Assembly (NCBI GenBank): GCA_015661185.1
Contig: JACVXU010000016.1
Location: 4,860 to 43,752, forward strand
DNA length: 38,893 nt
Reading direction: 5' to 3'
From: Bacteroidota bacterium
GTDB lineage: Bacteria; Bacteroidota; Ignavibacteria; UBA10030
The notes beneath the pieces are model-generated. The model was given only the letters and a program-made list of their open reading frames with translations, searched no databases and was not told where the DNA came from. The position numbers and the translations under genes are program-made. How positions within the stretch are numbered: position 1 is the first letter of the stretch; every line of letters begins with the position of its first letter. Of this stretch, positions 1,834-10,401 are shown piece after piece.

Positions 1834-3776
1834 ACGATTCGCATTTCAATTTCGAGTTTTTGGACAAGATCGACTATCCTGAGGACCTCCGGAAACTAGG
1901 CTTGAAAGATCTTCGGACTGTCTGCGCAGAGGTGCGAGAATTCCTTATTGACACCTTGTCAAAGACGGGGGGGCATTTTGGAGCTGGTCTCGGCACGGTG
2001 GAGCTGACAGTCGCCCTGCACTATGCGTTCCTGACTCCGCGAGACAAGCTCATCTGGGATACCGGGCATCAAGCATATCCTCACAAGATACTCACCGGGC
2101 GAAAAAATCGAATGAACACAATCCGGCAGCTGAACGGGTTGAGTGGATTCCTGAAACGTACTGAAAGCGAGTATGATGTCTTTGGCGCAGGACACGCCAG
2201 CACGGCGATCTCTGCAGCGCTCGGCATCGCCACTGCAAGGGACTTCAATGGGGAGGACTACAAGGTTGTTGCGATCGTCGGTGATGGTTCGCTCACCGGC
2301 GGCATGGCATACGAAGCAATGAACAATGCCGGCCTTCTGAAAAAGGACCTCATTGTCGTTCTCAATGACAACGAAATGGTCTCACTTTCCTCGGTTCGGC
2401 CGACGCTCTGGTCGTTGCATAGCTACTTCAGCGAAGCCCTGACGCATCCGTCGTATAACAAGTTCAAGACAAACGTTTGGGAGCTGACTGGCAAGCTAGA
2501 CGTCTTTGGCGATCGCCTGCGGTCCGTTGCACAAAAAGTTGAACGCGGGGTCAAAGCGATTGTAACCCCAGGTATGTTGTTCGAGGCGCTGGGGTTCAGG
2601 TATTTTGGCCCGTTCAACGGCCATAACGTATTCAAGTTGGTCGAAATCTTCCAGCACGTACGTGATCTCAAAGGCCCAATCTTGATCCATGTTCGGACGA
2701 TGAAAGGCAAAGGATACGCTCCTGCAGAAAAAGAGGCAACAAGACTGCATGGTGTGACACCCTTTGACAAGATTACCGGGATCTCTCCGAAGAAGTCGGA
2801 TGAACTCCCTGCGTATACAAAGGTCTTCGGCGAAGCGTTGGTTGAGATTTGCAGACAGAATCCGAAAGTTGTTGGCATCACTGCAGCCATGCCAGATGGA
2901 ACGGGGTTGACGCTTCTTCATACAGAAATGCCCGAGCGGTTCTTTGATGTTGGCATCGCAGAACAGCATGCAGTGACGTTCGCTGCTGGAATGGCGACCG
3001 AGGGTTATGTTCCGGTCACCGCCATCTATTCTACGTTTCTCCAGCGTGCCTTTGACCAGGTCGTCCATGATTGTGCCATCCAGAAGTTGCACGTGGTTTT
3101 TGTCCTTGACCGTGGCGGACTTGTCGGGGGTGATGGGCCTACGCATCACGGCGCTCTGGACCTCTCATACTTGCGTTGCGTGCAGGGGATGGTTGTCATG
3201 GCCCCGAAGGACGAGCAAGAACTTCGCGATATGTTGTACACGGCCGTTGAGTACAAGGACGGACCGATTGCGTTGCGTTATCCCCGGGGCAACTCCCTTG
3301 GCGTCGACGTTAGACCTGGATTTCGGAAACTCGAGATTGGCAGGGGAGTGACATTGCGCGGGGGCAAGAACGTGGCGGTACTTGCCGTTGGGAACGTGGT
3401 TCCATACGCGCTAGAAGCCGCCGAGATCCTGGCGGCTGAGGGGATCGAAGCTGAGGTTGTTAACATGCGTTTTGTGAAACCGATTGACGATGAGCTCATC
3501 CGCTTATTGGCGCTGCGGATCGATGCTATCGTAACGGTCGAAGACAACGTCATTCAAGGCGGGTTCGGCTCCGGAATACTCGAATCGATAAGCAAATTGG
3601 GGCTCTCCAACATTGCTGTGAAGCTCCACGGCCTGCCAGATGATTTTGTTGACCATGGAACGCCGAATGAACTGTATCGAATGCTGAAGCTCGATGCAGA
3701 AGGTATCGCTGATGTCGTACGGGAATTTCTCCTCTCGCGGCGGAATGCGGCCACACCCCAATTGACCTCATCGTAA
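1830..3776 (+). CDS. dxs: 1-deoxy-D-xylulose-5-phosphate synthase
   Basis: 648 aa transketolase-like TPP enzyme; VGDGSLTGGMAYEAMNNAG, DVGIAEQHAVTFAAGMA and DRGGLVGGDGPTHHG motifs. Confidence 0.96.
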   Translation: MNDSHFNFEFLDKIDYPEDLRKLGLKDLRTVCAEVREFLIDTLSKTGGHFGAGLGTVELTVALHYAFLTPRDKLIWDTGHQAYPHKILTGRKNRMNTIRQLNGLSGFLKRTESEYDVFGAGHASTAISAALGIATARDFNGEDYKVVAIVGDGSLTGGMAYEAMNNAGLLKKDLIVVLNDNEMVSLSSVRPTLWSLHSYFSEALTHPSYNKFKTNVWELTGKLDVFGDRLRSVAQKVERGVKAIVTPGMLFEALGFRYFGPFNGHNVFKLVEIFQHVRDLKGPILIHVRTMKGKGYAPAEKEATRLHGVTPFDKITGISPKKSDELPAYTKVFGEALVEICRQNPKVVGITAAMPDGTGLTLLHTEMPERFFDVGIAEQHAVTFAAGMATEGYVPVTAIYSTFLQRAFDQVVHDCAIQKLHVVFVLDRGGLVGGDGPTHHGALDLSYLRCVQGMVVMAPKDEQELRDMLYTAVEYKDGPIALRYPRGNSLGVDVRPGFRKLEIGRGVTLRGGKNVAVLAVGNVVPYALEAAEILAAEGIEAEVVNMRFVKPIDDELIRLLALRIDAIVTVEDNVIQGGFGSGILESISKLGLSNIAVKLHGLPDDFVDHGTPNELYRMLKLDAEGIADVVREFLLSRRNAATPQLTSS

Positions 3777-9498: not shown

Positions 9499-9571
9499 GC
9501 ACCCATGGCTCAATTGGTAGAGCAACTGACTCTTAATCAGTGGGTTCCAGGTTCGAGTCCTGGTGGGTGCA
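9499..9571 (+). tRNA. tRNA-Lys (anticodon CTT)
   Basis: GCACCCA/TGGGTGC acceptor stem, CTGACTCTTAATCAG anticodon arm, GGTTCGAGTCC T arm. Confidence 0.95.
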
Positions 9572-9619
9572 CAAAAACACAAGGGGTCCGCTTTCTGAGG
9601 ACCCCGATATGTTTTTGTG
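9570..9619 (+). terminator. Hairpin terminator downstream of tRNA-Lys
   Basis: GGGGTCC (9583-9589)/GGACCCC (9599-9605) stem then GTTTTT; outer CACAAAAAC/GTTTTTGTG arms can extend the stem. Confidence 0.6.
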
Positions 9620-9649
9620 TATCAGTGGGGGACGAAGTTGTCCTGCTTG

Positions 9650-9925
9650 CCCCGATGATTTGTGTCGGGGGTGGGTGCACGATGCCATAGGCCTGTGAAA
9701 TCCGCGAGAACCTATTAGTCGGTCACGCTTTCCTGAATCCCGCCCGTTTGCGGGATTCAATTGTTCAGGAAGGAAGGGGCCGGGACGTTTGAGAATTCTC
9801 TGTCGAGGTGACGGAACTGCCTACCCACCGATCAAGCACCAGAGGAGCTGGCGGGGTTGACGTGCCCCGACTAGGTCGGGGTAAACTGGACTCAGAAAGA
9901 CAGCTTGTCCCGTTTGACGGGATCT
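9650..9925. repeat. Cluster of CCCG-core palindromes
   Basis: CCCCGA..TCGGGG (9650-9670); TGAATCCCGC..GCGGGATTCA (9734-9759); CCCCGAC-TAG-GTCGGGG (9865-9881); TCCCGT-TTG-ACGGGA (9908-9922). Confidence 0.75.
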
Positions 9926-9965
9926 GGCTTACTCCTGGTGGGTAAGTTGATTGTTCGGTTTCCTC

Positions 9966-10214
9966 ATGTTCATCGTATACGTCTTGCGATCGTTGAAGGA
10001 CTTGAAGTTGTACATTGGAATGACGCAAGACCTCGCGTCGCGTGTGAAGAAACATAACGATGGAGGGGTGCCTTCGACACGATATCGCAGACCGCTCGAA
10101 TTGGTGTATCACGAACATTGTGCGACGCGAATTGAAGCGCGGCAGCGCGAAAAGTATCTGAAGAGCGGTCCCGGTCACGCATTCATCAAGAGCGTGATTT
10201 CGACGATGGCCTGA
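9966..10214 (+). CDS. Small GIY-YIG nuclease family protein
   Basis: MFIVYVLRSLKDLKLYIGMTQDLASRVKKHN...EARQREKYLKSG; VYV/YIG plus conserved R and E. ORF track starts at TTG 9951. Confidence 0.9.
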   Translation: MFIVYVLRSLKDLKLYIGMTQDLASRVKKHNDGGVPSTRYRRPLELVYHEHCATRIEARQREKYLKSGPGHAFIKSVISTMA

Positions 10215-10234
10215 ATTGAGATATATAGTCAATC

Positions 10235-10320
10235 GCCGAAGTGGCGGAACTGGTAGACGCGCTGGACTCAAAATCCAGTCTGGCTTACACCAGGTGGGGG
10301 TTCGAGTCCCCCCTTCGGCA
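10235..10320 (+). tRNA. tRNA-Leu (anticodon CAA)
   Basis: GCCGAAG/CTTCGGC acceptor stem, CTGGA-CTCAAAA-TCCAG anticodon arm, long variable arm, GGTTCGAGTCC-like T arm. Confidence 0.95.
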
Positions 10321-10401
10321 CACATTTCTTCAGGAGGATGTTGATGCACTAAGGATACGATTTGTTTGCACCCGCGTCTTGCAGTATCCTAGAGAACATC
10401 C

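Follow-up and report, generated by a model that had tools for sequence, protein, structure and literature searches.

We consider it probable, at roughly two chances in three, that the locus between the tRNA-Lys and tRNA-Leu genes of the window (the whole stretch of 38,893 nucleotides that was analysed) is one copy, together with an older decayed one, of a minimal free-standing GIY-YIG element that is nested in tRNA genes and that, like SegB, would cleave and home into them. In the general unit, a small GIY-YIG ORF has an intact tRNA gene on one side and a partial copy of that tRNA on the other, and all three share one strand. The sequences suggest that tRNA genes are invaded by the nuclease as it spreads, yet are not destroyed. 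This is apparently a widespread bacterial element that has so far gone undescribed; no published description of the unit was found in the open PMC literature, which was searched for GIY-YIG with bacterial tRNA genes, for palindromes and for REP with GIY-YIG.

Decayed tRNA copies and a nuclease gene at the locus

The first-pass annotation of the window had reported five palindromes between the two tRNA genes, followed by a GIY-YIG ORF of 82-87 aa. All five palindromes are present, with perfect 10-bp arms at 9734-9759 and 7-bp arms at 9583-9605, 9865-9881 and elsewhere, and the ORF is intact. The features of the locus are the following:

9499-9572, + strand: intact tRNA-Lys(CTT), left border (ARAGORN; Rfam RF00005, 74 bits)
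9583-9605, no strand: palindrome 1, terminator-like spacer hairpin just 3' of tRNA-Lys, outside the element (also after tRNA-Lys in G002 and G015)
9620-9680, + strand: decayed 3' part of a second tRNA-Lys copy, T-arm broken by a hairpin (sequence reading; similar hairpin-bearing tRNA-Lys pieces in G011 and G015)
9646-9670, + strand: palindrome 2, hairpin CTTGCCCCGATGATTTGTGTCGGGG within the tRNA-Lys copy, belonging to a family of dispersed CTTG hairpins (41 matches in the host genome vs 2 for the reversed control)
9734-9759, no strand: palindrome 3, older spacer hairpin, outside the element (in the G003 spacer, without ORF or tRNA-Leu copy; also in G005)
9802-9945, + strand: decayed tRNA-Leu(CAA) copy in which hairpins occupy the D region and flank the anticodon stem on either side (sequence compared with tRNA-Leu and the copies in G005, G011, G013 and G020)
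9865-9881, no strand: palindrome 4, hairpin 5' of the anticodon stem in the tRNA-Leu copy (position common to five genera-level lineages; paired in 7/7 sequences, with a C-G/U-A exchange)
9904-9923, + strand: palindrome 5 with its CTTG flank (arms 9908-9912 and 9918-9922), hairpin 3' of the anticodon stem in the tRNA-Leu copy (tRNA-Leu copy comparison; paired in 7/7 sequences, with a U-A/C-G exchange)
9966-10214, + strand: GIY-YIG nuclease ORF of 82 aa, or 87 aa from an alternative TTG start at 9951 (Pfam PF01541, 3.1e-13)
10235-10321, + strand: intact tRNA-Leu(CAA), right border and functional copy (ARAGORN; Rfam RF00005, 62 bits)

Palindromes 2, 4 and 5 are not free-standing, and each lies inside a decayed copy of one of the flanking tRNAs. 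The tRNA-Lys remnant reads ..GTCCTG, then the hairpin CTTGCCCCGATGATTTGTGTCGGGG, then GTGGGTGCAC, palindrome 2 being the interruption. The tRNA-Leu(CAA) remnant reads GTCGAGGTGACGGAACTG followed by a hairpin, then ..ACGTG, the hairpin CCCCGACTAGGTCGGGG and TAAACTGGACTCA, then ..ACAG, the hairpin CTTGTCCCGTTTGACGGGAT and CTGGCTTAC.., with palindromes 4 and 5 flanking the anticodon stem. The unit is built from duplicated parts of tRNA genes, with hairpins at the tRNA arms, a construction that the first-pass annotation had missed. Matching hairpin-bearing tRNA-Leu copies adjoin the ORF, on its 5' or its 3' side, in G005, G011, G013 and G020, and G005 has two tRNA-Leu copies in tandem as well as a fragment of a second GIY-YIG gene. 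The tRNA-Lys copy at 9620-9680 is probably an older insertion whose ORF has since been lost.

Palindromes 4 and 5 lie inside the tRNA-Leu copy adjoining the ORF and palindrome 2 inside the tRNA-Lys copy; the view that the palindromes form one unit with the ORF fails for numbers 1 and 3, which are older spacer. These two were rejected as parts of the element because they occur in relatives that lack it or retain remnants only (palindrome 1 at the same spacer in G002 and G015, palindrome 3 in the G003 spacer with neither ORF nor tRNA copy). Hairpin-bearing tRNA-Leu copies can be mistaken for other tRNAs: two of them (L070 and L072) lie 3' of a GIY-YIG ORF, and at L072 ARAGORN calls a tRNA-Gly(GCC) at 1758-1847 that is really such a copy.

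The Pfam GIY-YIG domain spans residues 2-67 of the 82-aa protein of the window (PF01541, E = 3.1e-13). Y16, G18, R26, H30 and E62 are conserved in the family alignment, and Y16, G18, R26 and E62 are among the residues that are invariant in its 16 sequences. Between the host genome (G000) and G005, dN is 0.041 and dS 0.470, and the ORF is under purifying selection. The best profile matches of known structure are the UPF0213 proteins 1YWL (2.5e-15) and 1ZG2 (2.3e-14), and the same comparison places the SLX1 structure-specific nucleases as the nearest solved relatives outside UPF0213. NCBIfam returned no specific family for the protein; PHROG homing-endonuclease profiles gave weak matches for a few of the 16 members and none for the window protein. 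The gene is free-standing, that is, a separate ORF between tRNAs, with no intron family in Rfam. At 82 aa the protein has the catalytic domain only, and a separate DNA-binding region as in I-TevI is absent. A DNA-binding part beyond the catalytic domain is usual in Seg and Tev enzymes. Because only the catalytic domain is present, we withhold membership among the proven free-standing homing endonucleases.

Association with tRNA genes in several phyla

Within the host family (32 genomes), relatives of the ORF adjoin Leu, Arg, Pro, Ser, Gln, Asp, Val and Ala tRNA genes on the same strand, and the opposite side of the ORF usually holds a piece of the same tRNA. Such a partial copy was found across the ORF at 47 of 52 loci, by a rule slightly different from the one used for the multi-phylum count. 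For the latter, we scanned one genome per species (84,980 species) with a profile and took the best 80 relatives, whose titles name Bacteroidota, Ignavibacteria, Planctomycetes (including Scalindua), Omnitrophota, Nitrospirae, delta-proteobacteria, Patescibacteria groups and Neomarinimicrobiota. A tRNA gene on the same strand lies at most 300 bp away in 71 of these 80, and at 64 of the 71 loci a partial copy of that tRNA occurs on the other side of the ORF (0/71 in shuffled controls). Over both sets, 111 of 123 loci combine the ORF with a partial tRNA copy. The partial copy may be 5' or 3' of the ORF, and may consist of the 5' piece only or of the 3' piece only. From the aligned end of the ORF to the intact tRNA the median gap is 5 nt, and the median distance from the start of the broken copy to the start of the intact tRNA is 307.5 bp. 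The unit comprises one gene, with no integrase gene inside.

A relative of the GIY-YIG family is carried by 243 of the 396 sampled genomes of the phylum, which is an upper bound, as some relatives are not bound to tRNAs. In Flavobacterium, the lower-scoring GIY-YIG relatives do not lie beside tRNAs. The genomes are mostly draft or metagenome-assembled, and several GIY-YIG loci lie at contig ends (in the host, contig C116 of 3072 bp has a GIY-YIG match at 2784-3020). This is expected if repeats break assemblies, so that counts from draft genomes probably underestimate the number of copies. Phages or plasmids as the usual carrier were rejected, since the matches there were few and distant. The sole relative on a viral contig (L332; IMGVR_UViG_3300025138_000201, 1289-1596) is a GIY-YIG ORF that ends at an intact tRNA-Arg(ACG) and is preceded by a tRNA piece bearing a hairpin; this contig may be host DNA.

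The broken copy often bears a hairpin whose place in the tRNA is fixed, commonly CCTGCCTGCCGGCAGGCAGG following nucleotide 22, and hairpins between nucleotides 22 and 23 are found in many tRNA types and many phyla. Many of the multi-phylum copies run from tRNA nucleotides 1-22 into CCTGCCTGCCGGCAGGCAGG or a variant of it (for example CCCGCCCG..CGGGCGGG), then into a further 10-30 nt or so of the tRNA, and on through the ORF to the intact tRNA. In these the insertion of the hairpin is clean, between the D-loop and the 3' D-stem. Perfect stems of at least 7 bp are present in 66 of the 111 copies, compared with about 5.5 expected from shuffles. In Flavobacterium, TCCCGA..TCGGGA replaces the anticodon arm of the copy. 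The link between ORF and palindrome proposed in the first-pass annotation is also seen elsewhere, as the palindrome accompanies the ORF across tRNA types and phyla. At several loci of the host family (L093, L096, L097, L099 and L112 for Arg; L111, L113, L120 and L123 for Ser) the broken copy starts in the T-arm (nucleotide 58 or about 71-74) instead of the D or anticodon arm, and there the consensus of the T-loop is similar to the published SegB motif RAWTSGAAC in reverse complement.

Presence, absence and probable spread of the unit

The same SecG and downstream genes flank the window locus in relatives, and orthologous tRNA-Lys/tRNA-Leu loci with and without the insert were compared, as the first-pass annotation had recommended. 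The spacer measures 662 bp here, and empty spacers of 7, 71, 75 and 122 bp were found in G007, G010, G014 and G003, respectively. The 416-bp spacer of G002 holds a decayed copy and a remnant of the ORF. Similarly, the tRNA-Ala(GGC) locus of Flavobacterium lacks the insert in G066, G490, G469 and G260, and holds it in G377, G436, G501 and G282. The flanks of G377, once joined, align with the G066 sequence in one continuous match (87% over 485 bp), and G377 has more than 400 bp extra. At the same locus, G070 and G443 have hairpin-bearing tRNA copies and no GIY-YIG ORF: the copies (L318 and L314, respectively) are in tandem 5' of the intact tRNA, and their anticodon arm is a TCCCGAT..ATCGGGA hairpin. 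Since the empty sites are compared between species, single gains are not separable from losses. Insert-free sites in relatives and in Flavobacterium, and the recurrence of ORF and hairpins together in several phyla, bear out the earlier proposal of a minimal mobile unit.

In a tree of 68 nuclease sequences, which is based on a short alignment (89 columns) that leaves deep forks unresolved, the tRNA isotype changes 10 times (minimum 7, shuffled mean 36.5) and the host genus 40 times. Each nuclease lineage keeps to one tRNA isotype even where the host genera differ. The unit also occurs in tandem arrays; three of them have 3-5 GIY-YIG units with a period of about 323-450 bp (G273:C1:120132-122180, G210:C1:135233-136936 and G172:C1:1384625-1385513). 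A -7 motif of the Bacteroidota type precedes the broken copy at 14 of 44 loci and the intact tRNA at 2 of 44, the pattern to be expected from an insertion of the unit into the tRNA gene at a point 3' of the promoter.

The tRNA copies, their association with the ORF and its presence or absence at comparable loci are direct observations, and intronless homing would explain them best. The nuclease would cut within one arm (D, anticodon or T) of a tRNA gene that lacks the insert, and recombinational repair from an occupied copy would insert the ORF together with tRNA sequence. One complete tRNA would survive because tRNA sequence comes in with the ORF. The broken copy would mark the point of insertion, the hairpin within it may remove or block the cut site there, and the ORF would be transcribed together with the tRNA from the host tRNA promoter. 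Some points speak against homing: the intact tRNA at an occupied locus should remain a target, hairpin-bearing tRNA copies are also found without the ORF (G070 and G443), and the protein has the catalytic domain only and scores nearest to UPF0213 and SLX1.

Part of the evidence on alternative explanations comes from hairpins that are dispersed in the genomes. The palindromes do recur in the host genome, where the motif CTTGYCCCG..CGGGR has 41 matches (2 in the reversed control), far more than chance would give, and only palindromes 2 and 5 are covered by it. These CTTG hairpins are often nested inside other palindromes (for example at L044, L047 and L064). Across nine relatives, a small sample that is not corrected for kinship, hairpin copy number correlates with the number of Y1 transposase genes (rho 0.95) and not with that of GIY-YIG genes (rho 0.09). 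The host has 14 Y1 matches, all on other contigs, with no Y1 gene between the tRNAs, and G002 has 16 hairpin pattern matches without a close GIY-YIG relative. The mobilisation of dispersed palindromes by a GIY-YIG nuclease in place of a RAYT, at the core of the first-pass annotation, is not supported by this correlation. The exact 20-bp palindrome is rare (0-12 copies per genome), and all 26 phylum genomes that contain it also have the GIY-YIG family (243/396 overall; Fisher p = 2.7e-6, not kinship-corrected). Since this palindrome was found only with the GIY-YIG family and accompanies the ORF, the hairpin may take a direct part in moving the unit. What stands of the proposed REPtron-like unit is its minimal mobile nature and the restriction of the 20-bp palindrome to GIY-YIG genomes, whereas the dispersed hairpins follow Y1 transposases.

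Among the alternatives to homing, the one that we rate highest, although still as unlikely, is a new class of mobile element, in which a hairpin, a single-domain GIY-YIG protein and a borrowed tRNA piece make up a unit of about 300 bp. Its nuclease would act on hairpin or cruciform DNA, recognise the palindrome together with a tRNA arm, and exchange or insert hairpins at the arms while the tRNA is regenerated. More doubtful than this is a true GIY-REPtron, as put forward by the first-pass annotation, with the nuclease itself mobilising the hairpins. TnpA-REP is thought to move REPs by nicking hairpin DNA at the bases of stem-loops, and a GIY-YIG nuclease doing the same would move hairpins into tRNA arms and into other palindromes. 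The persistence of the palindrome with the ORF across tRNA types and phyla, the 26/26 co-occurrence, the relatedness to SLX1 and the hairpins that replace anticodon arms in Flavobacterium would all suit such an enzyme; the correlation with Y1, the hairpins of G002 and the rarity of the exact palindrome do not. If instead REP-type hairpins spread by Y1 (RAYT) had settled in dispensable tRNA copies, with the GIY-YIG ORF as an unrelated neighbour, one would understand the correlation between hairpin and Y1 copy numbers and a host with 14 Y1 matches and 41 CTTG hairpins, many of them nested in other palindromes. We hold such a coincidence to be very improbable in view of the 111 of 123 loci where ORF and partial copy occur together, and of a nuclease tree that follows the tRNA isotype. 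Independent REP insertion as the whole story was also rejected, because the tRNA position of the hairpins is the same in distant phyla, and both hairpins are common to the tRNA-Leu copies of different genera.

We likewise see very little chance that the hairpin-bearing tRNA copy is a regulatory RNA, acting as a tRNA-like leader or trailer that controls nuclease expression or tRNA processing. The block folds better than its own shuffles (z = -2.87), a promoter motif precedes the copy, and the tRNA-Leu copies show changes on both sides at 4 pairs, with 95% of cells paired. These changes come from just 7 related sequences, the anticodon-stem pairing is inherited from the tRNA, and part of the folding signal as a whole is inherited tRNA. 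In addition, a single such RNA does not explain copies that lie 5' or 3' of the ORF and are 5'-only or 3'-only pieces. Rfam returned only tRNAs at the gathering score and nothing convincing at a relaxed E-value, so that a known structured RNA family for the block was rejected; the structured RNA that the first-pass annotation had offered as its own alternative has no support in Rfam. Hardly more credible is a gene useful to the host, namely a domesticated repair nuclease of the UPF0213 type that, beside tRNA genes, would for example adjust tRNA gene dosage. Purifying selection on the ORF, the profile similarity to 1YWL and 1ZG2 and the benefit that SegB amplification brings to its phage are compatible with it, and it is opposed by sporadic presence at orthologous loci, by decayed remnants (G002) and by the many tRNA isotypes without a constant host locus.

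Comparison with known systems

The single-domain GIY-YIG family described here is tied to tRNA genes in many bacteria. If homing is true, free-standing homing endonucleases of the SegB type would not be a phage speciality and would have a large chromosomal population. They would have invaded many tRNA isotypes repeatedly, with the host spared by the replacement tRNA sequence that they carry, and this would explain the hairpin-interrupted tRNA copies, some of which ARAGORN miscalls as tRNA-Gly. Two questions become open to testing: what holds a nuclease of 80 residues to a single tRNA isotype, and why the discarded copy is broken by a palindrome.

In domain size and catalytic pattern the protein is like the single-domain GIY-YIG proteins of UPF0213 / YhbQ-YazA (1YWL and 1ZG2) and like SLX1. 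Unlike these, the tRNA-bound family is multi-copy and appears to be mobile, while its lower-scoring relatives in Flavobacterium lie away from tRNAs. With the REPtrons of REP and RAYT (TnpA-REP) the unit shares short GC palindromes, some of them dispersed, that are linked to a small nuclease gene and, in the host genus, carry the conserved tetranucleotide CTTG on one side. It differs from them in that the nuclease is GIY-YIG and not Y1/HUH, the hairpins sit at set positions in tRNA copies and the dispersed copies track Y1 genes. Some integrase islands restore a tRNA end on insertion. As in these islands and in group I introns inserted into tRNAs, conserved tRNA genes appear to serve as insertion sites with tRNA function preserved, whereas here Rfam detects no intron RNA, no integrase gene is present, and the unit is about 300 bp with one gene. 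Some group I introns carry endonucleases that are specific for the anticodon regions of tRNAs (Bonocora and Shub 2001, cited in PMC3984707).

The closest parallel to the homing explanation is SegB of T4/T6, which is referred to as a free-standing GIY-YIG homing endonuclease (Brok-Volchanskaya et al. 2008, cited in PMC3984707). Experiments have shown that this GIY-YIG enzyme cuts within tRNA genes, and that through its nuclease activity tRNA-segB is amplified in tandem by homologous recombination, to the benefit of its phage (PMC13096335). Unlike SegB, the unit is chromosomal and spread over several bacterial phyla, its protein is a single domain of about 80-95 aa, it is bracketed by a partial copy of its own tRNA with a hairpin, and its lineages are faithful to one isotype. 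Like SegB, it places a GIY-YIG gene beside tRNA genes, forms tandem tRNA-nuclease units, has no intron and is found with many tRNA isotypes.
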